Shown here one piece after another: positions 5,972 through 40,875 of a stretch of DNA of 41,376 nucleotides. Positions within the stretch are counted from its first letter, which is position 1. The number at the start of each line of letters is the position of its first letter. The notes beneath the pieces are model-generated. The model had not been told where the DNA came from, made no database searches, and worked only from the letters and a program-made list of their open reading frames with translations. Origin of the DNA: a virus; IMG/VR virus record IMGVR_UViG_3300008267_000114, positions 1 through 41,376 of that record. One strand, given 5' to 3'. The position numbers and the translations under genes were made by a program.

Positions 5972-6144
5972 AGATACTCAAGAAGTTCGAAGAGAACCTT
6001 GAACACCTTGGATTTGAAATGGCTCCAATTGCTTGGGATTTAGCCAAGTTCCCCTTTGAATCCGATGACGACCGAATTTCAGTATTAGAGGAACTAACGG
6101 CTAAGGAGGCTACACCTAATGTCCCTAACAGAATGGTGGAGTGA
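5968..6144 (+). CDS. Small acidic protein, unknown function
   Basis: 58 residues starting MKILKKFEENLEHLGFEMAP. Its ATG overlaps the stop of the previous gene (ATGA) and its end overlaps the next start by 26 bases. It is mostly helical and acidic. Coding is supported by coupling at both ends. No family recognised. Confidence 0.55.
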   Translation: MKILKKFEENLEHLGFEMAPIAWDLAKFPFESDDDRISVLEELTAKEATPNVPNRMVE

Positions 6145-9100
6145 CCCTTCCGTAGCTGCAGACCCAACCAAGGAACCAAAACTATCTAAGGTTGACAAGT
6201 TCAAGAAGGAACAAGATAACACCAAAGTAGGAAAAGCTGAACAAGCTATTGTTCCTAAAGTAATGGGTGCTATCGAAGCTGGAAGCAAGAAGCCAATTCT
6301 TGGCAAGATTATTAATCCAGCAATGAGCATGCTTAACTTTGTTGGCGAAAAAGTTGTTCAACCAATAACTCAAACAGTTTCCGCTGCGCTACTTACACCT
6401 CAAGCCATGGCTAAAGGTAAAGGCGGATTAACTGAAAGCTATCGCTATTCAAAGAAGCAAGCTGAAAAGATTTCAATGGGACAGGCAGCAGCCAGTGCTG
6501 TTGGTAAAGTTGCAGCTCCTGTTCTTGGCAACGTAAGCGAAGCAACATTCCTTCAAAAAGATTTTAACGTATTTGACGAACGTCAACGTGATAAAGCATT
6601 CCGCGATGAATGGGCTGGAATCCTAGCCTCTGGCGTTACCGATTTAGCACTTGCTGCTCTTGGCACTAAAGGTGCAGGTATTGCCGTTCGTGGCACTGCA
6701 AAGAAAGTTGTAGGTCCAAAGCGTCTTGCTACCGCAGAGGATTTAGATGACTTCAAAACAGAACTAGATGAGATTGTTGCGTCTAAGGCTTTGCCTGTAG
6801 AGCAACAACCAAAGACTGGTCTATCTGTATTAGTAGATGACGCAGTTAATGAAACAAATTTAACTAAGCTTGCATCTAATCCACTTGTATCTGAAACATC
6901 TAACCCTTATAGAACCGCAACAATTCTATCTAGATTAGATAACCACCAAGATGTGGCAGACTATCTATTGGCAGAACGTGGCGATACCGCAGCGTTCCAG
7001 CGGTTCTTTGACCGCAATCCACTAGCAGCTGACCACCTTGATAATTATGGAATTACTGCTACAGCACCAATTGATAACTTTGCAAACATTGGATTAGATG
7101 CACTAGACGAAGGTCTAGTAGCAAGATACCAAAAGATTATTGATGCTAAGAAAGCAGATGACCCTAACTTTGCTCGCGCTTTAGATGACTTCATGGAGAA
7201 GGCGCGTATGGGTGTTATTGAAAGTTATCGCCCAGGACGCTACGCAGCGCTAGAGCAGATTGGCTTAGCTAAGAAGAAGATAAAGTCACAAGCTTTGTAT
7301 GGCGACCTCAAGATGTTTGGTCAAGATGCAGATGGTGGCTGGAAGACTCAGGTTTATCAAACTGCTACATACGATAGAGCAGTGCGTCTTATTGCATGGA
7401 CTGGCTCAGGTCGTCCACAAGGCTACATTAATATTTCTAACCCACGTAAGTTCGAAGCAGCTAACGATTTACTATCTGACTTAAACCGTCTTCAGTTCCT
7501 TAAGGGAACCGAAGGTGCTATGTATAAGCGTCGCATGGTTGAAATGTTTTTAGATGCTCAAAGCGATACACAACGCGCCATTGCGCTTGGTCGTATCGAA
7601 GAAAGCGTCATGGGTCGTCTTGCTAAGCATTACGGCATTAACGATATGCAAGATATTGCTAGCACTAAAGACGCTGTAAACCAGATTAAGAACTGGCATA
7701 TTCGTATGAACCAAACACGCGATTCTATTAAAGAATACGCAGTTAAGAATGGTTTTGTTCCAGACGAGGGTGGCGGAATTAACGTCCAGAACTTCTTGTC
7801 TGTATCTAACGAAGCACAGAATTTACCAATGCTTGACTTCCGCAGACTTGAAACTGAAGTTATCTTCAACGCTCGTCGCGTTGCAGGCAAAGGTGCAAAG
7901 GTTACTGAAGGTCAGTTCTATGGCGCTGTAGCGTCAAGAACTGCCATGAACGTAGGTCAATTCCTTGACTTAGCAAACATGGTGTTCAGCAACTTGAACC
8001 TTCTTCGTCTTGCATACATACCTAAGAACTCAATGGTAGACCCATTCGCTCGTGCAAGCATGGCTCTTGAGTCAATGGAGCTTGTTAAGAACGCAGTTCC
8101 TGGTGTAGATAATGTTGTTTACAACACTGGTCTTCTTAAGGAATCTGTAAAGAAATGGGTTCCAGGTAGCCCTGCGTCTAATGCTCGTAAGCAAGCCAAG
8201 GCTGCACAGTTTCGTGTTGAAAAATACCGAGCAGACTTAGAGCCAAAGATTACAGCTCATGCTAAAGCAGAGGCTGTATACGATGACTTAGATAAGTCAC
8301 TTACTAAACTTATAGTTGCTCGTGATAAAGCCAAGGCTAAGGCTTTGAAGAGCAATGATGTTGAAGTTCAAAACAAATACTACGAACTTGAAGACAAGGT
8401 AACAGAATTACAGTCTAAAGTAAACGATGCGTTTGATGAGATGGGTAGACTTGGCGACTACGTCAATGGTATTGCTAAGTTAATTCAACGCGAACGTAAA
8501 GACTGGGCAGAGTTTGCTAACGCTCAAGGAAGCCTAAAACAAAAGAAGCTTCTTGGTCAAGATGCTGAAGTTATTGAAGTTAACGGTCAGACTTATACAA
8601 TCCAAGGTCTTGCTGACCCTAACGTTCGTGGCGCTAGCGCATACATGTCAGAAATTGACACTGCTACAAACTTTTATTCAGCATCAATGCAGTCAGAAAT
8701 CTCTCGTAGACTTCAGGCAGATGGTGCTCGCTTCGTAAAGATTCCACGTAAGAATCGTGAAGAGTATATGAATGCGTTGGCACATATTGCCAACCGTCAA
8801 ATTCGCAACGAACTTGACCTACCAGTTGGTTGGTTAATGAAGGGCGAAAAGTCCAATGCTGAAGTTCTAGAATGGCTATATAGCCCAGCAGGTAAAGAAT
8901 ATAGACTTCGTATTGAAGAACGTTTTGGCGATGACATGGAAGCCTGGGTAGGGCAGACTAGAGAAAAACTCTATGCCATGTATCCAGATGCAGACCTTCG
9001 TAAAATTATTATGGAGCGTCCAGTAACCTATCAAGAAGTAGATGCAATGCTTTACGGCAGAACAGACCTACTCAAAGAAATTGATGGACCAAGCCTAAAG

Positions 9101-11086
9101 CTTTCTGATTTAACTGGCGCTGAGCAAGTTCTTGCTCGCGTAGGTGGTGCGACAAACGCAGCATGGAAAGTCCTTTCAATGGCTGAAACTCGTTTGGTTC
9201 GTAACCCATTGTTCTTGTCTTATGCTCGTGACGAAATGAAGACGCTGATTAATGCAGCGCAACGTTCAGGCATAGATGTAACAGACGCTGTAGTAAACAA
9301 CGAGATTCGTCAGGTTGCTTACCGTAAGGCATTGAGCCGAGTCGAACAAACTCTTTATTCCTCACGTCGCCTTACTAACGGTATGTATACAGCACGTTAT
9401 GCGATGAGCTTCCCCTTGGCTTTCTTTAATTCACAGGCAGTTGCGCTTCGCCTATTGGCTCGCAATCCAATGAATGCTTACTGGTATAACAGTATTCAAC
9501 AGGCATTTGATAATTACCAAGCCTATGAAGACCAAGATGGAAACACCTATTCTTCAATCAAGGATGTTCCAGACGGAGTAGCGGTATCTGTTAAGTATCC
9601 ACTTCCATATGGAGATAAACTTCCAAGTTGGGTTAAGACTGCTCTTAAGCCTTATACAGACCCACGTGGTGGTGGCGTTAAGTTTAATCCTAAGCAGATG
9701 GAGTTCATGGTCGCAGACCCATCCATCTCTTGGTTTGGAACAGCAACCGTATCTGAGATTATTGATAACGGATTTAGCTTCGGTCCATGGAAACTTTATG
9801 GTGAGCAGGTAGCACTATCGCTTCGTGAAACACTTGGCGATGACGTATACGAATCCACAATTCTTTACGGCGGTTATCCAACCGAAGGTAAGAACCTTGC
9901 TGAAAAAGTAAAGAACACTATGGTTCCAGGGTATCTTCAATCTTTGATTGACTCTGGCAAGTTGCCTTACCCAATCCGTCAAGCGTTTTCGCTTATCGGA
10001 CTTGAGAAGAGTGAACGATTTACTGATGAAGTTTATGCTCATTGGCGTAAAGGTTTCTCCGAGTGGGTAGCAAACGGACGTATTGGTCAGCCACCTTCAA
10101 TGAAGGATGCTGCTAAGGCAGCAGGAAATATGGCGTTCATTAGGTCTGTTGTTCAGTTCAACGCACCTATCTCAGCAACATTTGACCCAGTAACACGTGC
10201 AGCTACTGCATACTACGCAGACCTTGTAGAGATGGCTAACGGCGATTACGACGTTGCACAAAAGGTTATGCAAGATGAATGGGGACTAGACAGCCTAGCG
10301 CTTGTTGGGTCTAACCAGAAGAATGTTGCTGGCGTAGCAGCAACACTCAATGACATTAAAGTTCTTCGCAATAGCGTTAAGTTATTAGAAGAACTTGGTA
10401 ATACCAATACTAAGTATGCTGGAATGTTGTCATCTGGTTATGGCGATATTGCAGGAACTGGTAGTGGACCAAATGATTATTCTACAGAAGTAGCTTCTAT
10501 CTATAAGAGAATGAAGTTCGCGGATGGATTTAATAATCCTATTACTCAGAAGAAGAATGAAGACGAGTTAAAGAAATCTGTTCAGGCTCGTGTTGGTTGG
10601 GCTGAATACCAAAAGGCTGTTGACTGGCGCAATGCCATGATGAAGCAATATGGAATTGCATCAACATATGAGTCTAGGTATGAATACTCTGGCATCAAGC
10701 GAGTCTTTGATGACATGGTAGACGACATTGAAAAAGACTATAAGGGTTGGGTAGAAGAGCGCGATGAAGAGCGCAAGGACTACTGGAATGGAACCATTGC
10801 AGCAGTAGAAACTATCTCCAAGAACCTTGACTGGAGAACCTACGCATACTCAACTGGCAATACCAAGTGGGAAGAAATTGCTTTCTGGGTTGGTAAAGCT
10901 CGTAACTTTAAGGATGAGTATGACCGACCAAACAATAGTGACGAAAGGAAGTTGATGCTTAAGCAGCAATTCTCACAGTTCCACTATGACTACATTCAGA
11001 CGGCTTCTGATGAATTTGATGCATTTGCCACAAGATGGTTAAACAATATGCCAGAACTAGATAATGAATTCGTGGTGACAAAGTGA
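6119..11086 (+). CDS. Giant virion protein, probable internal/ejection protein
   Basis: 1655 residues, the longest gene in the window. A short region at about 60-95 is mildly hydrophobic (MSMLNFVGEKVVQPITQTVS). Residues about 680-780 are charged helix/coiled coil. The C-terminal half is rich in Tyr, Trp and Asn, with aromatic stretches such as YAMSFPLAFFNSQAVALRL that could contact membrane. No catalytic motif is recognisable. Podoviruses carry very long internal proteins ejected with the DNA, and size plus position make that the best guess. A large polyvalent-type effector is the alternative. It sits between portal and scaffold/capsid, which is earlier than in T7-like genomes. Start ATG at 6119 with AAGGAGG at 6103-6109. 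Confidence 0.6.
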   Translation: MSLTEWWSDPSVAADPTKEPKLSKVDKFKKEQDNTKVGKAEQAIVPKVMGAIEAGSKKPILGKIINPAMSMLNFVGEKVVQPITQTVSAALLTPQAMAKGKGGLTESYRYSKKQAEKISMGQAAASAVGKVAAPVLGNVSEATFLQKDFNVFDERQRDKAFRDEWAGILASGVTDLALAALGTKGAGIAVRGTAKKVVGPKRLATAEDLDDFKTELDEIVASKALPVEQQPKTGLSVLVDDAVNETNLTKLASNPLVSETSNPYRTATILSRLDNHQDVADYLLAERGDTAAFQRFFDRNPLAADHLDNYGITATAPIDNFANIGLDALDEGLVARYQKIIDAKKADDPNFARALDDFMEKARMGVIESYRPGRYAALEQIGLAKKKIKSQALYGDLKMFGQDADGGWKTQVYQTATYDRAVRLIAWTGSGRPQGYINISNPRKFEAANDLLSDLNRLQFLKGTEGAMYKRRMVEMFLDAQSDTQRAIALGRIEESVMGRLAKHYGINDMQDIASTKDAVNQIKNWHIRMNQTRDSIKEYAVKNGFVPDEGGGINVQNFLSVSNEAQNLPMLDFRRLETEVIFNARRVAGKGAKVTEGQFYGAVASRTAMNVGQFLDLANMVFSNLNLLRLAYIPKNSMVDPFARASMALESMELVKNAVPGVDNVVYNTGLLKESVKKWVPGSPASNARKQAKAAQFRVEKYRADLEPKITAHAKAEAVYDDLDKSLTKLIVARDKAKAKALKSNDVEVQNKYYELEDKVTELQSKVNDAFDEMGRLGDYVNGIAKLIQRERKDWAEFANAQGSLKQKKLLGQDAEVIEVNGQTYTIQGLADPNVRGASAYMSEIDTATNFYSASMQSEISRRLQADGARFVKIPRKNREEYMNALAHIANRQIRNELDLPVGWLMKGEKSNAEVLEWLYSPAGKEYRLRIEERFGDDMEAWVGQTREKLYAMYPDADLRKIIMERPVTYQEVDAMLYGRTDLLKEIDGPSLKLSDLTGAEQVLARVGGATNAAWKVLSMAETRLVRNPLFLSYARDEMKTLINAAQRSGIDVTDAVVNNEIRQVAYRKALSRVEQTLYSSRRLTNGMYTARYAMSFPLAFFNSQAVALRLLARNPMNAYWYNSIQQAFDNYQAYEDQDGNTYSSIKDVPDGVAVSVKYPLPYGDKLPSWVKTALKPYTDPRGGGVKFNPKQMEFMVADPSISWFGTATVSEIIDNGFSFGPWKLYGEQVALSLRETLGDDVYESTILYGGYPTEGKNLAEKVKNTMVPGYLQSLIDSGKLPYPIRQAFSLIGLEKSERFTDEVYAHWRKGFSEWVANGRIGQPPSMKDAAKAAGNMAFIRSVVQFNAPISATFDPVTRAATAYYADLVEMANGDYDVAQKVMQDEWGLDSLALVGSNQKNVAGVAATLNDIKVLRNSVKLLEELGNTNTKYAGMLSSGYGDIAGTGSGPNDYSTEVASIYKRMKFADGFNNPITQKKNEDELKKSVQARVGWAEYQKAVDWRNAMMKQYGIASTYESRYEYSGIKRVFDDMVDDIEKDYKGWVEERDEERKDYWNGTIAAVETISKNLDWRTYAYSTGNTKWEEIAFWVGKARNFKDEYDRPNNSDERKLMLKQQFSQFHYDYIQTASDEFDAFATRWLNNMPELDNEFVVTK

Positions 11087-31845: not shown

Positions 31846-32116
31846 AACCTACGAAGAGCAACGTATCTCCCGCATCCGTATGTATGGAATTACCGTGGAG
31901 GATTACGAGCAGATGCTTGAAGACCAGAACGGTGGATGCTACATCTGTGGCAAGAAACCAGAAGGTAAGCGAGCTCTTGACATAGACCACGACCATGCAA
32001 CTGGCAAGGTGCGTGGCTTGCTTTGCTCTAATCATAATCGCGCTTTGGGTTTACTTGGTGATGACATATCTTTAATGCTTAAGTCCGTTGAATACTTGGT
32101 GAAGTCACGTGACTGA
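31826..32116 (+). CDS. Endonuclease VII-like HNH protein
   Basis: 96 residues from ATG 31826 (an upstream ATG at 31808 adds six). CYICGK gives the first Cys pair, LDIDHDHATGKVRGLLC the catalytic His and zinc ligands, SNHNRALGLLGD the closing helix. This is the recombination endonuclease VII (T4 gp49) family, which cuts branched DNA, or a free-standing homing-type relative. Two resolvase-like genes (also 29240) thus occur in this arm. Confidence 0.8.
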   Translation: MPRNRNKTYEEQRISRIRMYGITVEDYEQMLEDQNGGCYICGKKPEGKRALDIDHDHATGKVRGLLCSNHNRALGLLGDDISLMLKSVEYLVKSRD

Positions 32117-32747
32117 CTTAAGTAAAGACCATGAGATTTGGTCTGTGATTAATGAGATAACAAGCACAATTGCTTGGGGTATCTCAAAGAGATATCACAG
32201 GTTTGTTGAGCTTGAAGATGTTAAGCAGGCAATGAACGAGTATGCATGGAAGCGCAAGGACAAAGTATCCGAATACCTTATTAGAGAAGATGAGATAGAA
32301 CGCAAGCAGGGATACAAAGCGTTCAGCACATTCATCCGTAGGGCAGGCGAGCGGTATGCTCGCAAAGAGAAAGCTCGTGCTCTTGGCTATGAGTTAGGTG
32401 ATGAATACTTTTATCGCTTGGCTATGATTGAAACTCTAATCAAAGTGCTTGGCTCTGATGATGCTCACCTGTCCAACCAAGTAATGGACCCAGATATTCA
32501 TGGCGTTAAAGCTAAGCGTCAAGCCAGTGAAGGTAACAACCTATTGGCTATGCTTGCTGATGTAGATAGGGCTATGAAGAAGCTTGACCTACGCACACAT
32601 TCAATATTAAAAACTAAATATGCAACCGATGCACCTCTTGCTGAGATTGCAAAAGAGTGGGACATCTCTCCGCAAAGAGTGGAGCAGATTATTAACAAGG
32701 GACTAAGAGATATAACTGAGTATCTCGGAGGGGCAACACCATACTAA
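32109..32747 (+). CDS. Sigma-factor-like protein with C-terminal HTH
   Basis: 212 residues, GTG start overlapping the previous stop. The C-terminal 50 residues (LRTHSILKTKYATDAPLAEI then SPQRVEQIINKGLRDI) follow sigma-70 region 4. The N-terminal part is helical and charged but does not show a clear region 2. It may steer host RNA polymerase to phage promoters, working alongside WhiB. Confidence 0.65.
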   Translation: MTDLSKDHEIWSVINEITSTIAWGISKRYHRFVELEDVKQAMNEYAWKRKDKVSEYLIREDEIERKQGYKAFSTFIRRAGERYARKEKARALGYELGDEYFYRLAMIETLIKVLGSDDAHLSNQVMDPDIHGVKAKRQASEGNNLLAMLADVDRAMKKLDLRTHSILKTKYATDAPLAEIAKEWDISPQRVEQIINKGLRDITEYLGGATPY

Positions 32748-34990: not shown

Positions 34991-35214
34991 GCTTCCTTCC
35001 TTTCCTTGTGTTCCTTGTAATACATTTCGCAGACATCACCATCTATCTGATGGTAATGCATATGAGCACCAGACATGAAGAGGACTTCGTCCTCGTCGTC
35101 GCCTAGTCCATAGGAATCGTGGTATCCACAATACCAAGTCCAGCCCCCGACTGGAACAATCTTTAGTCGGGAGGCTTTTACTTCGAGCGTATTTTTATTT
35201 TTTAGTTTGCCCAT
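34987..35214 (-). CDS. Unknown small protein with aromatic core
   Basis: 75 residues from ATG 35214, four bases after AGGAG; longer starts overlap the upstream gene further. Contains GGWTWYCGYHDSYGLGDD then MSGAHMHYHQIDGD, with several His and two Cys that might bind metal. Acidic middle and basic tail. No family recognised. Confidence 0.55.
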   Translation of the reverse strand: MGKLKNKNTLEVKASRLKIVPVGGWTWYCGYHDSYGLGDDEDEVLFMSGAHMHYHQIDGDVCEMYYKEHKERKEA

Positions 35215-35431
35215 CATTCTCCTCTGGTGCGTAAGCAATGATGTCTACCATCTGTGCTTCTGTATCGTTATGCAATGGCTGCTCTATTAGAGCAGGCTCA
35301 TCGTTCTTTTGTGAGTAGATGTGTAAGTAGTCCAGTGCTTTGAGTATGTATTGCGCCACCCTTGGGGTGAGTGGCGGTTGCTCATACGGTTGGTCGAACT
35401 GGTCTACGTATTTCTGTAATGGGTTTGTCAT
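35195..35431 (-). CDS. Unknown small acidic protein
   Basis: 78 residues, MTNPLQKYVDQFDQPYEQPP then a helix (RVAQYILKALDYLHIYSQKN). Start overlaps the DUF932 gene's stop (ATGA), stop runs into the next gene. Function unknown. Confidence 0.6.
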   Translation of the reverse strand: MTNPLQKYVDQFDQPYEQPPLTPRVAQYILKALDYLHIYSQKNDEPALIEQPLHNDTEAQMVDIIAYAPEENDGQTKK

Positions 35432-36396
35432 GCTACCTCCTGTGTTACTAGGTCAAGAGCTTTGCTCTTGAGGGTGTCATACTTACCAGCGATTACACGT
35501 TCTGCACGAGTAGCCTCTGACTTGTGTGAGTTCCAGTCGAGATACTCGACGATTGCTTGGAACGCACCGAACGCAGTGCCTCGGATGTTATCTTGAGTGC
35601 TGCTTGATTGGTAGATGTTCATTGCAGTAGAGCGAGCATCGGTTACACGATTGAATGTGCGTCGTTCACCAGTGCTGAGTTTGTTATACGGTGTCTTCTC
35701 AATGATGGATGGTAGTGTCCACATCTTGTTGAACACACGCTCAACCTGGTTGTCTGATACCGATACATTGAGTAACTTATCTGCGATAAGTTCATAGGTT
35801 TCGATACCTGTATAGATTACATCTAACATCTTACGCATCTCATCTACCTTGAGTTGAGCGTTGGTTGTGTGATGCAAGGAATACTTGCAGTTCTTGCGGA
35901 AGATTCCACTGATTTGATTCGAGCAGAACAACCGATTGACTAGCGGTGTTACACCTAGTGAGCATGAACCATCATGTGAGGTTCGTGCTAGTAGGTATGC
36001 AGCATGTGGGTCATTGGCAATCTTGACTTCATGCGGTAACTCAAGAAGCATCCAGACTTGAGCACCATCTCGCAGCTCACCTGCGTTTGCATATCGTGCT
36101 TCACCTGAATCGACTAGTGCATCCAGCGCTGAGAACATCTCACCATTCTGGAACACCTTGTATCTACTACCTACTGTGCCAAGCACAGACTGTCCGCCAT
36201 CCTTATCGGTGCGGATAGTGGCGAATGTAGATGGCACAGCCAATCGGCTAACGCCTGTATCATTCACAGCGATAGCCTCAAGGTCAGCCAGTGATACGTG
36301 CCAGTCAAGACCAGCCTGTTGTGCTGCATCCTGTGCGGATGTAGCGGTTACTGCGGAGCCAGCAATACTTGCTGACATTCTACGTGTTGTTGTCAT
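35428..36396 (-). CDS. DUF932 phage/plasmid-like protein
   Basis: 322 residues from ATG 36396 with CGAAAGGA upstream (longer frame starts at 36441 without RBS). Hallmarks are GLDWHVSLADLEA near the start, GTVGSRYKVFQNGEMFSALD, MLLELPHEVKI and RLFCSNQ. DUF932 proteins are frequent in phages and plasmids and may touch DNA metabolism, but no activity is established in general. Largest gene of the - arm. Confidence 0.85.
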   Translation of the reverse strand: MTTTRRMSASIAGSAVTATSAQDAAQQAGLDWHVSLADLEAIAVNDTGVSRLAVPSTFATIRTDKDGGQSVLGTVGSRYKVFQNGEMFSALDALVDSGEARYANAGELRDGAQVWMLLELPHEVKIANDPHAAYLLARTSHDGSCSLGVTPLVNRLFCSNQISGIFRKNCKYSLHHTTNAQLKVDEMRKMLDVIYTGIETYELIADKLLNVSVSDNQVERVFNKMWTLPSIIEKTPYNKLSTGERRTFNRVTDARSTAMNIYQSSSTQDNIRGTAFGAFQAIVEYLDWNSHKSEATRAERVIAGKYDTLKSKALDLVTQEVA

Positions 36397-36437
36397 ATGT
36401 GTTCCTTTCGTTTGATGGTTGGTTGGGAGAGAGTATC

Positions 36438-36683
36438 TCATAGACGATTGTCGAAGTCAACAATTGCCTGGGAGAGTTGGTCATGGTAATGACCCATGCT
36501 GCAGGCTAGCTCGCCTGACTGTGACCAGTATGCCCACCATGTTACGTATGGGTGATACTGTGATTCGGGGAATAGGCAAAGGACTATCCATCCATTGCCT
36601 ACGGTTTTCTTGATGTCGAGAATGGTTGCGCCGTTAGCGCAAACATCACCACGCTTTGGCGTGGATAGGATTGTTTCTGTCAT
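36438..36683 (-). CDS. Unknown small Trp/Tyr-rich protein
   Basis: 81 residues. MTETILSTPKRGDVCANGAT and HPYVTWWAYWSQSGELACSM suggest a compact beta domain with two Cys. Begins two bases after the previous stop (36685). Common kind of small phage ORFan; function unknown. Confidence 0.6.
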   Translation of the reverse strand: MTETILSTPKRGDVCANGATILDIKKTVGNGWIVLCLFPESQYHPYVTWWAYWSQSGELACSMGHYHDQLSQAIVDFDNRL

Positions 36684-36684
36684 G

Positions 36685-37158
36685 TTATGCCTCCCTTATG
36701 TAGTCGACACGTGTGTCATCGATAGAGAATGTGTCGAACTCTGTGTTATCGCCATCGATATCCCATTCTGGGTCGCTGCTTATACCAATCTCCTCAGCAA
36801 TTGAGCGAGCATCATCTTCTGATGCTGCTGTTATCTTGAAGGTGGCATACATTACGTATCGAACCTGCACTTCATACTCTTTCGTGAAGACAAGTTCGTT
36901 GCCGAAGATGTCTTTGAGAATCTCAGATAATTCTGAGAACTCGATGGTGTCATCTGGGTCTGACTGATTCTCTTGAATCACATCATTGATTGCTGTGTAT
37001 AGACTACGCACCTTGTCACGATGGTCATTGACTAGGCTTGAGTAATTAGAAACCTTGGTTTCTAGGTCGGATAGTTTCGTATTAAGTTGTTGCACTAGCA
37101 CATCTGGTGCTATGTAATCGGTGACTGTTGCACCGAATGGTGTTGTTTCTTCGGTCAT
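36685..37158 (-). CDS. Unknown acidic protein with coiled coil
   Basis: 157 residues, strongly acidic. About 22-60 is a coiled coil (QQLNTKLSDLETKVSNYSSL). The end holds a strand-helix unit (YVMYATFKITAASEDDARSI). Start preceded by CGAAAGGAG and, further up, by hairpin copy 1 (37199-37217). Function unknown. Confidence 0.65.
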   Translation of the reverse strand: MTEETTPFGATVTDYIAPDVLVQQLNTKLSDLETKVSNYSSLVNDHRDKVRSLYTAINDVIQENQSDPDDTIEFSELSEILKDIFGNELVFTKEYEVQVRYVMYATFKITAASEDDARSIAEEIGISSDPEWDIDGDNTEFDTFSIDDTRVDYIREA

Positions 37159-37198
37159 TTGTGTTGCTCCTTTCGGTTAGTGTTGCTTCCTATATATA

Positions 37199-37217
37199 AG
37201 CACAGCTTTGCTGTGCT
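37199..37217 (-). repeat. Covarying hairpin element, copy 1
   Basis: Read on the - strand: TCAAGAT, stem AGCACAGC, loop AAA, stem GCTGTGCT, then TATATATAG. It starts directly after the stop of gene 37225-37539 and precedes CGAAAGGAG and ATG 37158. Stem bases 5 and 7 differ from other copies, each with the pairing change. Confidence 0.85.
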
Positions 37218-37224
37218 ATCTTGA

Positions 37225-37539
37225 TTACGCTGCGTCATCATCATCTGTGCGAGCAGCGAGTTGATTGTCGATTAGGTATTCGAGGACTAGTTCATCGGTG
37301 GTTTCGTAATCAATACCGAAGAAGTGGTCGCCCATGTTTACGAACCAGTTGTCCTTGACCATTCGGTCAAAGGCTTCTTCACGAGTTGATGTTACGACGA
37401 TGTCGTATTCATCTGGTCGTGAATACAGTGGTTCGAGTGCCTGCCAGATAGCAAGGTCTTGCATACCTGGACGGCGGTATTGCTCTGTGTAATTGAACAG
37501 TGTTGTTTCTACTTGTGCTATTAAGAATGATGCTTCCAT
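37225..37539 (-). CDS. Unknown acidic protein
   Basis: 104 residues, RBS AGGAG before ATG 37539. Helical, acidic, with the end ARTDDDDAA. WFVNMGDHFFGIDYETTDEL is the most distinctive segment. No family named. Its stop touches hairpin copy 1. Confidence 0.6.
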   Translation of the reverse strand: MEASFLIAQVETTLFNYTEQYRRPGMQDLAIWQALEPLYSRPDEYDIVVTSTREEAFDRMVKDNWFVNMGDHFFGIDYETTDELVLEYLIDNQLAARTDDDDAA

Positions 37540-37547
37540 GTTTACTC

Positions 37548-38255
37548 CTATCTCTTTGAGATACTGAATCGAATGTCGGACTTACCATCTATACATAGAC
37601 GGCATACCGCACAGGCTCCACCCTTTTCGGAGATGAGTGGAATGCGCTTGAGTTGTTCGGGGCAGGATGCTCCTGGCTTGCCAGTTAGTTCGAGCATTAC
37701 TTTCTTGGCATCACTGAAGGTGTTACCTAGATAAGCAACCTTCACACCAACAGGTGCGAACTCCCAGTTCTCGCTGTCGGCTGAGTAATACAGCGAGAGA
37801 TTGGCAACATCACGTAACGCACGAGCTGCGTCAGGGTTGCGTGTGTAAACCCAGAACTTTATGTCTGGATTGTTTTCGATTGCTACCTTCCATGCCCAGA
37901 TGTAATCGGCGTTGAAGAAGTCGCCGTCCCAGTGGATACGGAATAGTTTCTCGACACCTTTGGTGTCGCATTCTTTCTTGAACTCGATAAGCATGGTGTC
38001 AAGCATCGCCCACATGTCATACTTGTTTGCGTCCTTGATTGCATTCCAGTTGTGAAGTAATACTTCACGAACGGATGACCATTGCTTCTCTAGTTTTCCA
38101 GCGTAGCAAATCTTTTCGCATACGCTTGTGGCATAAGGGCAAGAGTATTGCTTGCCACTAGGCAGACCGAACGTGTTAGCGATTGCTGACCGCTTGCCAT
38201 TCGGTGTTGGTAATACAGTTACTTTACGGTCATGGGACCGCTTTAGTTTCGGCAT
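37548..38255 (-). CDS. GP88-family protein
   Basis: 235 residues from ATG 38255 (CGAAAGGAG upstream). Cys-rich entry CPYATSVCEKICYAG, then FRIHWDGDFFNADYIWAWKV, VYTRNPDAARAL and a C-terminal CAVCRLCIDG. This is the pattern of the actinophage gene product 88 family, whose Cys suggest a metal or Fe-S centre. Biochemical role unestablished. Follows hairpin copy 2. Confidence 0.78.
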   Translation of the reverse strand: MPKLKRSHDRKVTVLPTPNGKRSAIANTFGLPSGKQYSCPYATSVCEKICYAGKLEKQWSSVREVLLHNWNAIKDANKYDMWAMLDTMLIEFKKECDTKGVEKLFRIHWDGDFFNADYIWAWKVAIENNPDIKFWVYTRNPDAARALRDVANLSLYYSADSENWEFAPVGVKVAYLGNTFSDAKKVMLELTGKPGASCPEQLKRIPLISEKGGACAVCRLCIDGKSDIRFSISKR

Positions 38256-38292
38256 TGCTACTCCTTTCGTTGAGTTGTTGCCACTATTAATA

Positions 38293-38311
38293 AGCACATC
38301 TTTGATGTGCT
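38293..38311 (-). repeat. Covarying hairpin element, copy 2
   Basis: On the - strand: TCAAGAT, AGCACATC, AAA, GATGTGCT, TATTAATAG. It lies between the stop of 38325 and the CGAAAGGAG/ATG of the GP88-family gene. Confidence 0.85.
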
Positions 38312-38324
38312 ATCTTGATACGCA

Positions 38325-38528
38325 CTACCCGCAGCATGCGCCATCGGTAGTATCGGCACAGCATTCCGAACAGAATGGTTCGTTATCTTTCATGCTATTC
38401 CGACAGCCATACTCATCGAGTGTGTTAGTGCATGGGTGTCCCTCATACCCGAAGCACACAAGTTGAGCCAGTTCATCTATCGTCATGTCCATGATGTGCT
38501 TAGTAGTCATCGCGGTCGCTATCGTCAT
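38325..38528 (-). CDS. Small Cys-rich protein
   Basis: 67 residues from ATG 38528 (inner ATGs at 38510, 38492 and 38486 are possible; none has a clear RBS). Eight Cys, mostly in the last 45 residues (CFGYEGHPC, CSECCADTTDGACCG), suggest metal binding or a disulphide knot. Overlaps the end of the preceding gene. Function unknown. Confidence 0.6.
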   Translation of the reverse strand: MTIATAMTTKHIMDMTIDELAQLVCFGYEGHPCTNTLDEYGCRNSMKDNEPFCSECCADTTDGACCG

Positions 38529-38787
38529 AGTCGCACCATGGTCCGAGATGATGCCCCTCTACGATGGCATACGCAGGGGCTGTAATTGAGCCACGCCAAG
38601 TGATGCCTTCAGGTAGGGGGATACTCTTATGAGTATCGCCTTCTGACACTGCATAGATGGCTTCGATACATGGTTCCACCATAGTAAGTGGAACAGGGGG
38701 ATAGTGATTGCTTTGCAATTGAATTGCAATTGATTGGCGAATGTCAATGACATTCTCCGCGAGCTCGTGTGATGTGATGCTACCCAT
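38500..38787 (-). CDS. Unknown small protein
   Basis: 95 residues, start overlapping the previous stop (TAATG) with GAGGAGG upstream. N-terminal helix (NVIDIRQSIAIQLQSNHYPP) and an acidic tail (CDYDDSDRDDY). No family recognised. Confidence 0.6.
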   Translation of the reverse strand: MGSITSHELAENVIDIRQSIAIQLQSNHYPPVPLTMVEPCIEAIYAVSEGDTHKSIPLPEGITWRGSITAPAYAIVEGHHLGPWCDYDDSDRDDY

Positions 38788-38960
38788 TATTCTGCCTCCT
38801 CGTATAGTTCTTGAAGAATGTCTTCAAGTAAACCGTCTATGAAGTTATCAACTCTTCCATTGATTTCATCTACTGCCTTAGCGAATGCTAAGTCGGATAC
38901 ATTTCCCTCACGATTATCTTTATAGATAGCCTTGAGTTCTTCTATGTCTATGTATTGCAT
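38787..38960 (-). CDS. Small acidic helical protein
   Basis: 57 residues, MQYIDIEELKAIYKDNREGN to LQELYEEAE. TAATG junctions at both ends and GGAGG upstream (38968-38972) support coding. All-helical and acidic. Function unknown. Confidence 0.65.
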   Translation of the reverse strand: MQYIDIEELKAIYKDNREGNVSDLAFAKAVDEINGRVDNFIDGLLEDILQELYEEAE

Positions 38961-39118
38961 TAGTGTGCCTCCAGTTCCCAGTGTGCTCCGACTTCGAACG
39001 GTTCGAAGTCATCTGAAATCCAGTCATCGAGTTTCTCGATGGCTGATGCAGGGTCATTTGCTTTTACTTCTATTTCATAGTTCCTGGTAAGTGTTGCTCT
39101 TACTACGTAATTACCCAT
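38960..39118 (-). CDS. Small beta-alpha protein
   Basis: 52 residues from ATG 39118, where TGATG couples it to the previous gene and AAGGAGG lies upstream. YVVRATLTRNYEIEVKANDP then AIEKLDDWISDD resembles short phage proteins with a strand-strand-helix unit. Function unknown. Confidence 0.62.
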   Translation of the reverse strand: MGNYVVRATLTRNYEIEVKANDPASAIEKLDDWISDDFEPFEVGAHWELEAH

Positions 39119-39513
39119 CAGTTTGCCTCCTTGTCTACATAATCGGGATGCCAACCTGACTCCCGAACGTTGCGTCTGAACGCCACCTTGAGTGCGACTC
39201 CCACCTCATCGGTGATGTCTGTGTATTGTGCGCTGTATAACTGGCTTGCATTTGGTATAGATGGGACGTTGCTATCTTCGGTGTAATCACCGACAATCAT
39301 GACTCGGTCGCCAGCCCATCGCCCAGACACGCTAGTCAATGGCAGGTCGCCACCTCCAGCGTTAGGGCTAGTCATTACCAACAGATACATTGCATCAGCA
39401 ATGGTTCCGTTGAATGCACCTAGTTGTTCTACTTGCTTCGCGCCCAGCCCTAATCCATAAGGCTCGACGATTTCTTTCTTGTCATAGTTGACAAGGACAT
39501 GGTATTGACCCAT
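39118..39513 (-). CDS. Conserved-type small phage protein (GRWAGDR motif)
   Basis: 131 residues. MGQYHVLVNYDKKEIVEPYG and SGRWAGDRVMIVGDYTEDS match a family of phage and bacterial proteins that start MGQY and carry GRWAGD; the general role is not known. TAATG start overlap. Confidence 0.7.
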   Translation of the reverse strand: MGQYHVLVNYDKKEIVEPYGLGLGAKQVEQLGAFNGTIADAMYLLVMTSPNAGGGDLPLTSVSGRWAGDRVMIVGDYTEDSNVPSIPNASQLYSAQYTDITDEVGVALKVAFRRNVRESGWHPDYVDKEAN

Positions 39514-39755
39514 TAGTTTTGCTCCTTTGCTAGTCGTTGTTTGGCTTCATGGACTGCTTCGCAGACCAAGTCATACATGTCGGGGAACTCGAACCTGTTG
39601 AAGATAGCGACGGCTAGTCGCCACTCTTCATCGGTTAGTTTCTCTTCGCCCGCTACACCCATCACGTTCATGTCGTCTATGTCATACCATTGAGCGCAGA
39701 TTTCTGCATCAATTGGTAGTTCTTGCAGCAATGAAATTGCTGTTGATACCTTCAT
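39513..39755 (-). CDS. Unknown small acidic protein
   Basis: 80 residues from ATG 39755 with AAGGAGG upstream; a longer frame (39821) overlaps the preceding gene. MKVSTAISLLQELPIDAEIC resembles the start of small phage proteins with an ISxLqxxpxda pattern. Helical end. Function unknown. Confidence 0.65.
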   Translation of the reverse strand: MKVSTAISLLQELPIDAEICAQWYDIDDMNVMGVAGEEKLTDEEWRLAVAIFNRFEFPDMYDLVCEAVHEAKQRLAKEQN

Positions 39756-39907
39756 GCGTTTGCCTCCTTGTTGTTGTGGTATTGAAGTGTGTTCATCACT
39801 AGATGAATAACACAATCGCAATCTCCGCCGTTCATGTTGTCAATGAAGTCGAAGTGCGAATAGTTATCTTCGTATAACTGCTCGATTAGTTCAGGCATGG
39901 TTGCCAT
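39752..39907 (-). CDS. Very small acidic protein
   Basis: 51 residues, MATMPELIEQLYEDNYSHFD to NNKEANA, with C30 and C32 (GDCDCVIH). CGAAAGGGGA lies upstream of ATG 39907, which overlaps the previous stop; its own stop overlaps the next ATG (ATGA). Function unknown. Confidence 0.6.
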   Translation of the reverse strand: MATMPELIEQLYEDNYSHFDFIDNMNGGDCDCVIHLVMNTLQYHNNKEANA

Positions 39908-40089
39908 TAGATTTCCCCTTTCGCCTGCAGCTCCGCGAGGGCATCACCCCATGCGACGCTGAGTGTGTGGTATTTGGTTTCAACAATGACTGTATTCCAG
40001 TCATCGAGTTTCATTACCTCTACCCAATACATCGTGCCAGTGGGCGAGTTCTCATCTTCTTGCCAGTTAATCGCTACTTTGTAGTTCAT
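39907..40089 (-). CDS. Small protein, unknown
   Basis: 60 residues, MNYKVAINWQEDENSPTGTM then TKYHTLSVAWGDALAELQAK. A short strand-strand-helix layout. Both ends overlap neighbours (TGATG, TAATG). Function unknown. Confidence 0.6.
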   Translation of the reverse strand: MNYKVAINWQEDENSPTGTMYWVEVMKLDDWNTVIVETKYHTLSVAWGDALAELQAKGEI

Positions 40090-40172
40090 CAGTATTCACA
40101 TCCTTTGCAGTCAGGACGGAGGCAATCACCGCATGTGATGACTGCCTCCGTTGGGTTGGTTTCCTGGGTCAA
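40089..40172 (-). CDS. Possible 27-residue Cys peptide
   Basis: TTG start at 40172 overlaps the stop of the upstream gene (TTGA) and the TGA overlaps the next ATG (TGATG). The peptide ends TCGDCLRPDCKGCEY: C-x2-C-x4-C-x2-C, a miniature zinc knuckle. No strong RBS, so it depends on coupling. The Cys pattern and the fit between genes argue for coding, length argues against. Confidence 0.4.
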   Translation of the reverse strand: MTQETNPTEAVITCGDCLRPDCKGCEY

Positions 40173-40342
40173 CGGATTGCCGTTTCCCAGTGGTTGTCTA
40201 AATCAGCAGACCTTTGGTCTGCTATCTTGAGATGCCTGCGCCACTCAGTGTCGCGTCGCATCATGCCCATGAGGGCTCCAGTTAGGAATGACATTGCCAA
40301 TAGGCAAAGTATGAGGATGGATAGTGCTGTGTCGTTGCTCAT
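40169..40342 (-). CDS. Small membrane protein containing hairpin copy 3
   Basis: 57 residues. A hydrophobic N-terminal half (LSILILCLLAMSFLTGALMG) and a charged tail (RRDTEWRRHLKIADQRSADL). ATG 40342 overlaps the previous stop (TAATG). Hairpin copy 3 lies in the coding sequence for HLKIADQRSADL. Function unknown. Confidence 0.6.
   Translation of the reverse strand: MSNDTALSILILCLLAMSFLTGALMGMMRRDTEWRRHLKIADQRSADLDNHWETAIR
40205..40223 (-). repeat. Covarying hairpin element, copy 3 (inside a gene)
   Basis: On the - strand: CATCTCAAGAT, AGCAGACC, AAA, GGTCTGCT, GATTTAGAC. The stem is again a perfect 8 pairs but the TATTAAT tail is not kept. It lies inside gene 40169-40342. Confidence 0.8.
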
Positions 40343-40587
40343 TAGTTAGCACCGCCTTTCAGGGTTAGGTATGCGTTTGGTTCCACCTTGAGCACGGCTG
40401 CGAGAACCTTGTCAAAGTTTGGGTATTGACCCATTGCTGATAAGATTGCCTCAATCTTCTTCGAAGATTTGGCTGTGTTTGTAGTGATGCGAACCTTGGC
40501 GAATACTCGCTTGTTGTCCGCTTTCGAGATGTGGATAGTGCCGTTCTTCACGACACCGCTTAGTGTTTCGGTTGCTACTTTTCTCAT
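40342..40587 (-). CDS. Unknown small basic protein, first of the - arm
   Basis: 81 residues, GGAAAGGAAA upstream of ATG 40587. MRKVATETLSGVVKNGTIHI, a basic beta-like part and a helix (KKIEAILSAMGQYPNFDKVL). First gene of the left-going operon, preceded by hairpin copy 4. Function unknown. Confidence 0.62.
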   Translation of the reverse strand: MRKVATETLSGVVKNGTIHISKADNKRVFAKVRITTNTAKSSKKIEAILSAMGQYPNFDKVLAAVLKVEPNAYLTLKGGAN

Positions 40588-40635
40588 GGTGTTTCCTTTC
40601 CGCTGTCGGCATTTCCGACTGGCTCCCCATTAATA

Positions 40636-40654
40636 AGCAAATCTTTGATTTGCT
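40636..40654 (-). repeat. Covarying hairpin element, copy 4
   Basis: On the - strand: CATCTCAAGAT, AGCAAATC, AAA, GATTTGCT, TATTAATGG. It lies in the leader of the - strand operon, about 50 bases before ATG 40587. Confidence 0.85.
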
Positions 40655-40845
40655 ATCTTGAGATGTGCATACACGCTATTAACAGCACATACACGTGCGA
40701 GCTATTACCAGCACATACGCTATGCGCCTGAACGGATACATGACAGGGGTGGGCGCATACACATCACGTCGCTACGTCATGGGTCATGTGGGTCATGTAT
40801 GACATCCAAGACACGCCGTAATTACGCTCAGCCATCGGGCTGAAT

Positions 40846-40875
40846 TTGACAATGAGGGGCAGTTCATGAGAGAAT
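40846..40875 (+). promoter_or_regulatory. Possible + strand promoter for gene 40926
   Basis: A perfect TTGACA (40846-40851) is followed 18 bases later by GAGAAT (40870-40875), a partial -10 match. The gene starts about 50 bases downstream behind CGAAAGG. The TCAGCC/GGCTGA stem just upstream could be an operator. Confidence 0.45.

Follow-up and report, generated by a model that had tools for sequence, protein, structure and literature searches.

The right end of a phage genome raised the question of what is preserved in a short hairpin that recurs there: a sequence read by a protein, or a fold, and in the latter case whether RNA or DNA forms it. The window analysed was the whole of the 41,376-base viral record IMGVR_UViG_3300008267_000114. 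A pattern scan located four copies of TCAAGATAGCANNNCAAAGNNNTGCT, all on the - strand, and no others in the record, and the shuffle expectation with three mismatches allowed was 0.02 (Table 1). The first-pass annotation had placed four hairpins at 37199, 38293, 40205 and 40636, each with TCAAGAT before the stem and an AAA loop. All of these features were reproduced, as were the pair states given for stem position 5 (C-G, C-G, G-C, A-T) and stem position 7 (G-C, T-A, C-G, T-A). The TATTAAT/TATATAT tail assigned to copies 1, 2 and 4 exists, but was the least conserved part of the family and was weak in coding copies. The gene after copy 2 was of the GP88 family (PF17338). Copy 3 was not intergenic; it occupied the last codons of its host gene and preceded a 27-aa cysteine-rich ORF (40089-40172). 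A direct repeat, GCTATTANCAGCACATAC, was present upstream of copy 4 in two copies 26 nt apart (40675-40718).

Table 1. Coordinates of the hairpin family and of neighbouring signals in the window.
Feature	Position	Strand	Context
Leftward operon, gene blocks headed by hairpins	35195..40587	-	
Full element TCAAGATAGCANNNCAAAGNNNTGCT, four copies	37199-37224, 38293-38318, 40205-40230, 40636-40661	-	
Copy 1 hairpin AGCACAGC-AAA-GCTGTGCT	37199..37217	-	40 nt upstream of ATG at 37158
Copy 2 hairpin AGCACATC-AAA-GATGTGCT	38293..38311	-	37 nt upstream of ATG at 38255
Copy 3 hairpin AGCAGACC-AAA-GGTCTGCT	40205..40223	-	within coding gene 40169-40342; 32 nt upstream of TTG start at 40172
Copy 4 hairpin AGCAAATC-AAA-GATTTGCT	40636..40654	-	leader of first leftward gene (start 40587)
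5' element TCAAGAT	37218..37224 (copy 1), 38312-38318, 40224-40230, 40655-40661	-	
AT-rich 3' tail of copy 1	37190..37198	-	copies 2 and 4 have the TTATTAAT type, coding copy 3 a weak tail
Hairpin of unrelated sequence TCAAGAGC-AAA-GCTCTTGA	35453..35471	-	21 nt upstream of start 35431
Start-proximal hairpin CTTGAAGA-CAT-TCTTCAAG	38810..38828	-	upstream of start 38787, within coding sequence
Start-proximal hairpin GACTTCGAA-CCG-TTCGAAGTC	38990..39010	-	upstream of start 38960, within coding sequence
Second leader hairpin GTCGG-AAATG-CCGAC	40605..40619	-	upstream of first gene's Shine-Dalgarno sequence
Canonical SigA-type promoter TTGACA-18-GAGAAT	40846..40875	+	divergent rightward gene; contrast to hairpin sites

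IMG/VR was scanned with an exact pattern in which the six inner stem bases were free and pairing was not demanded. Twenty-four loci were obtained, and every match kept complementarity at its three inner pairs. Relatives were gathered through the GP88-family gene and a second pattern, and a covariance model trained on 16 copies was run against them. The matches (171 from 62 sources, and 119 from 47) included some duplicates, reverse-strand echoes and weak hits, and about 250 copies were found in related viral contigs. The two alignments comprised 71 and 65 distinct rows (136 in all), in which 74 + 74 = 148 stem cells were changed on both sides and none on one side only. No G-U wobble occurred in the 136 rows. 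Stem breaks in the homologues were confined to the outermost pair, and the copies lay at the same gene boundaries. For both alignments, none of 500 shuffles scored as high as the real rows for pairing or for covariation. Fitting to the covariance model biases the alignments towards structure, although it cannot remove G-U pairs. All four Watson-Crick pair types were present at positions 5 and 7, and compensated changes were rarer at positions 2, 6 and 8. Because the paired letters changed together across copies, the fold itself is kept, as the first-pass annotation had proposed. A fixed protein-binding site is ruled out, since the free stem positions changed only in complementary pairs.

The turnover of the stem was also followed at orthologous sites. 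On gene trees, where stem changes were counted on the 5' arm alone, at least eight replacements occurred at the first-gene locus, three at the coding locus and one at the gp88 locus. Retention was long-term though the flanks had diverged, and pairing was still perfect in the orthologues of coding copy 3. The loop varied among AAA, TTTA, GTA, ATA, GAA, TTC and AGA, and in relatives the 5' element TCAAGAT alternated with TCTTGAT and other A/T-rich forms. The switch between TCAAGAT and TCTTGAT was seen at orthologous sites, in relatives of copy 3 and in others (L042, L039 and L032), and the core TCAAGA is the reverse complement of the core TCTTGA. The unrelated hairpin at 35453 was likewise compensated, from TCAAGAGC/GCTCTTGA to TCAAGGGC/GCCCTTGA in L068. 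No curated Rfam covariance model matched the element, and the 12 matches of a degenerate pattern in bacterial genomes came from unrelated organisms and were judged to be due to chance.

The copies were associated with particular gene starts. In 19 stretches of the leftward operon, with gene starts predicted by a simple rule, a family copy lay within 85 nt at 46 of the 89 starts that follow gaps of at least 40 nt, against 1 of the 142 starts with smaller gaps, which agrees with the earlier claim of placement just upstream of starts. Furthermore, 56 of the 77 copies were 32-61 nt before a predicted start, and nearly all were on the same strand as the gene that follows. Within the window, three starts come after a gap of at least 30 nt, that of the first gene among them, and each of the three carried a copy. 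Perfect hairpins upstream of starts were enriched only in the right-end leftward operon, not before rightward genes and not on the opposite strand. SigA-type -35/-10 hexamers were absent at the four copies, though canonical ones were present at 40846 (+) and 36460 (-). No T-tract terminator was called on the - strand at the four copies, copy 1 being called on the + strand only. The identity of the copies as SigA promoters or T-tract terminators was rejected, since neither was called there on the gene strand. The SigA-like promoter on the - strand (36432-36460, TTGACT-17-GATACT with a TG extension) precedes the likely true start of a DUF932 gene near 36396, and relatives have a similar sequence there.

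The layout resembled that of the SAS and ESAS of cluster K mycobacteriophages, which are repeats that accompany the translation starts of some non-structural genes (Pope et al., 2011, PMC3203893; Adephagia, 2024, PMC11373665). In both cases an inverted repeat is found upstream of some starts, these belong to non-structural genes, and the same genes keep it across relatives. However, the cluster K repeat is a 17-bp imperfect inverted repeat with a 4-13 nt spacer, whereas here an 8-bp perfect stem encloses a 3-4 nt loop. Stem changes were compensatory here, unlike the departures among ESAS repeats, which do not support pairing (PMC3203893). The 13-bp SAS GGGATAGGAGCCC beside the start codon gave 3 matches at 3 mismatches versus 4.7 expected, none above chance. 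Identity with the cluster K SAS was rejected on this absence, and the parallel drawn earlier, a shared layout with a different sequence, is a parallel of layout only. In lambda-type nut sites, a hairpin of variable stem comes after a conserved linear element. The present element is similar in composition, but it is found in many copies, each at the start of a block.

The nearest cultured relatives of the window phage infect Streptomyces. Its large terminase shared 42-46% identity with the terminases of Streptomyces Beephvirinae and of two unannotated phages, and the virion genes of Manuel were in the same general order; megablast of the right arm against cultured phages gave no match. In the right-end leftward operon of seven such Streptomyces phages, perfect hairpins of at least 8 bp preceded 36 of 74 gap starts versus 3 of 38 packed starts. 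The stems of orthologous Streptomyces hairpins were unrelated, and their place and UNCG loops were kept. The genome of Manuel contained 54 perfect 8-bp hairpins versus about 2 expected (about 25-fold), virion and other coding genes included, and some of these were conserved in Kumquat and RosePharie beyond the prediction from the flanks, partly in coding genes. Perfect hairpins were also in excess in the rightward genes of the window. TM4 had no perfect 8-bp hairpins genome-wide and none near starts, and phiC31 had a mild genome-wide excess. A sigma-like protein (phrog_354, Sigma70 region 4) is common to the window (32109-32747, +) and Manuel (L142, 35702-36391), and a 1655-aa virion protein (phrog_10618; window 6119-11086, +) is conserved in the relatives and Manuel and had no PDB match.

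The loops and the stems bear on the question of whether RNA or DNA folds. The loop tally was 27 for C(AAA)G and 9 for C(TTTA)G, with no reverse complement of either, and in the Streptomyces phages 20 C(UNCG)G loops were counted versus no C(CGNA)G. UNCG is a known RNA tetraloop family. Because the loops are strand-specific, a reading as RNA on the sense strand is favoured, and the Streptomyces UNCG loops favour it as well. The kinds of stem near starts give a different indication. Perfect stems numbered 73 versus 8.8 expected in the relatives of the window and 38 versus 4.8 in the Streptomyces phages. Stems with one G-U pair (7 versus 11.2 and 4 versus 2.4, respectively) or one mismatch (20 versus 21.6 and 15 versus 12.4) were not in excess. 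The absence of G-U and the excess of perfect stems only are not typical of RNA and count against an RNA leader; the second hairpin of the first-gene leader, unlike the first, accepts G-U and broken pairs. The RNA-like covariation of that second hairpin, with G-U, itself counts in favour of RNA. The missing G-U could reflect a DNA-level rule or upkeep by template switching. Moreover, since perfect hairpins are in excess across Manuel and the rightward genes of the window, some of the signal may come from a process that acts on DNA. As judged from the sequences, the fold is kept, and which molecule folds is something that we infer. The repeated start-associated stem-loop may serve as a structured leader at the head of every translational block; this interpretation is favoured tentatively, with slightly less than even confidence.

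An alternative that is unlikely but carries some weight is a promoter or operator acting at the DNA level, in which the palindrome would function as double-stranded DNA or as an extruded hairpin, the AT tail would melt and transcription would start just downstream. Strict Watson-Crick pairing without G-U suits such an element, as do the flanks, which are AT-rich and then G, and the divergent intergenic region, whose conserved block begins at the element and in which no leftward SigA promoter was found. A sigma-like factor is encoded by both the window phage and Manuel, and cluster K ESAS have been reinterpreted as promoters with inverted repeats (PMC11373665). The N4 vRNAP uses promoters that are DNA hairpins, in which stem bases vary but stay paired (PMC4496689). 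The present element is like them in being a short hairpin with a 3-nt loop, in having both conserved and variable stem pairs and an AT stretch behind the stem, and in its occurrence in early genes. However, N4 vRNAP recognises a template-strand purine at -11 and G at -10 (PMC4496689), whereas the template loops here are mostly TTT and lack these bases, and many copies occur across the relatives, some within coding sequence. As a candidate N4-type virion RNA polymerase, the 1655-aa virion protein was without similarity to one in PDB, Pfam and PHROGs, the PF00940 search having no working control. Against a DNA element in general, no copy had a SigA match, coding copies lost the AT tail while the stem stayed perfect, and an operator bound by a dimer gives no reason why its free positions should change symmetrically. 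The strand-specific loops, and a Streptomyces version with UNCG loops and no AT tail, also argue against it.

It is improbable that the copies are attenuators or terminators without a U-tract, each stopping or pausing RNA polymerase before a block until a phage factor overcomes it. Perfect pairing would suit a termination hairpin, and the Streptomyces copies have GC-rich stems with UNCG loops. The early region of phiC31 reportedly contains Rho-independent terminators that lack poly-U tails, as the title of a 1995 paper by Ingham (cited in PMC8355165) has it. The window resembles phiC31, which also carries repressor-binding inverted repeats, in having hairpins or inverted repeats in an actinophage early region, but only one comparable start-proximal hairpin was found among 29 right-arm starts of phiC31. 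The likely true terminators of the window phage are also different, with 9-12 bp GC-rich stems (16435, 25738 and 34359), two of them with T-rich tails. Furthermore, the gene strand gave no terminator call at any copy, and the copies lie shortly before starts, with one in a leader and one within a coding gene.

Little credence is given to mutational upkeep, in which template switching during replication would keep short inverted repeats perfect without selection on a folded molecule: the genome-wide excess in Manuel, coding genes included, the lack of intermediates with G-U or inner-stem mismatches, and the exchange at orthologous sites of GAA and TTC loops, which are mutual reverse complements, as expected if replication inverts or rewrites palindromes, point to it, whereas the strong bias to the starts of one operon on one strand, the strand-specific loops and the long-term orthologous retention beside diverged flanks require selection. 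A combined interpretation is equally a long shot: perfect short hairpins would be actively kept genome-wide, and those at starts would be extruded DNA hairpins that open blocks to transcription, so that DNA hairpins would serve as promoters with no recognised polymerase of the N4 type.

The structured leader remains the interpretation that we prefer. It draws on the observed position of the copies, their perfect compensatory pairing, strand-specific loops and association with gene blocks, and the Streptomyces parallel; from these we infer RNA as the active form and a post-transcriptional effect. Each copy is a stem of some 8 bp, all Watson-Crick paired and closed by a loop of 3-4 nt; it precedes a start codon by 32-61 nt and heads one of the tightly packed gene blocks of the leftward operon. 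Acting as sense-strand RNA, it would give its block a structured 5' leader, a boundary by which the region where ribosomes load is protected or isolated. This boundary may be a barrier to 5' exonuclease or a fixed leader left after cleavage of a long transcript, and the blocks of one transcript would be expressed independently. There is weak support for a simple insulation of the Shine-Dalgarno region, because the gain in ribosome-site accessibility predicted by folding was small (+0.02).

Since 2011, the function of the start-associated sequences of actinobacteriophages has not been settled. The present family keeps its fold and not its sequence, as seen in hundreds of comparative copies, with internal controls and cultured Streptomyces relatives, pointing to a phage gene-control element not previously described. 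If confirmed, it would provide a rule for the division of one phage operon into blocks that are expressed independently.
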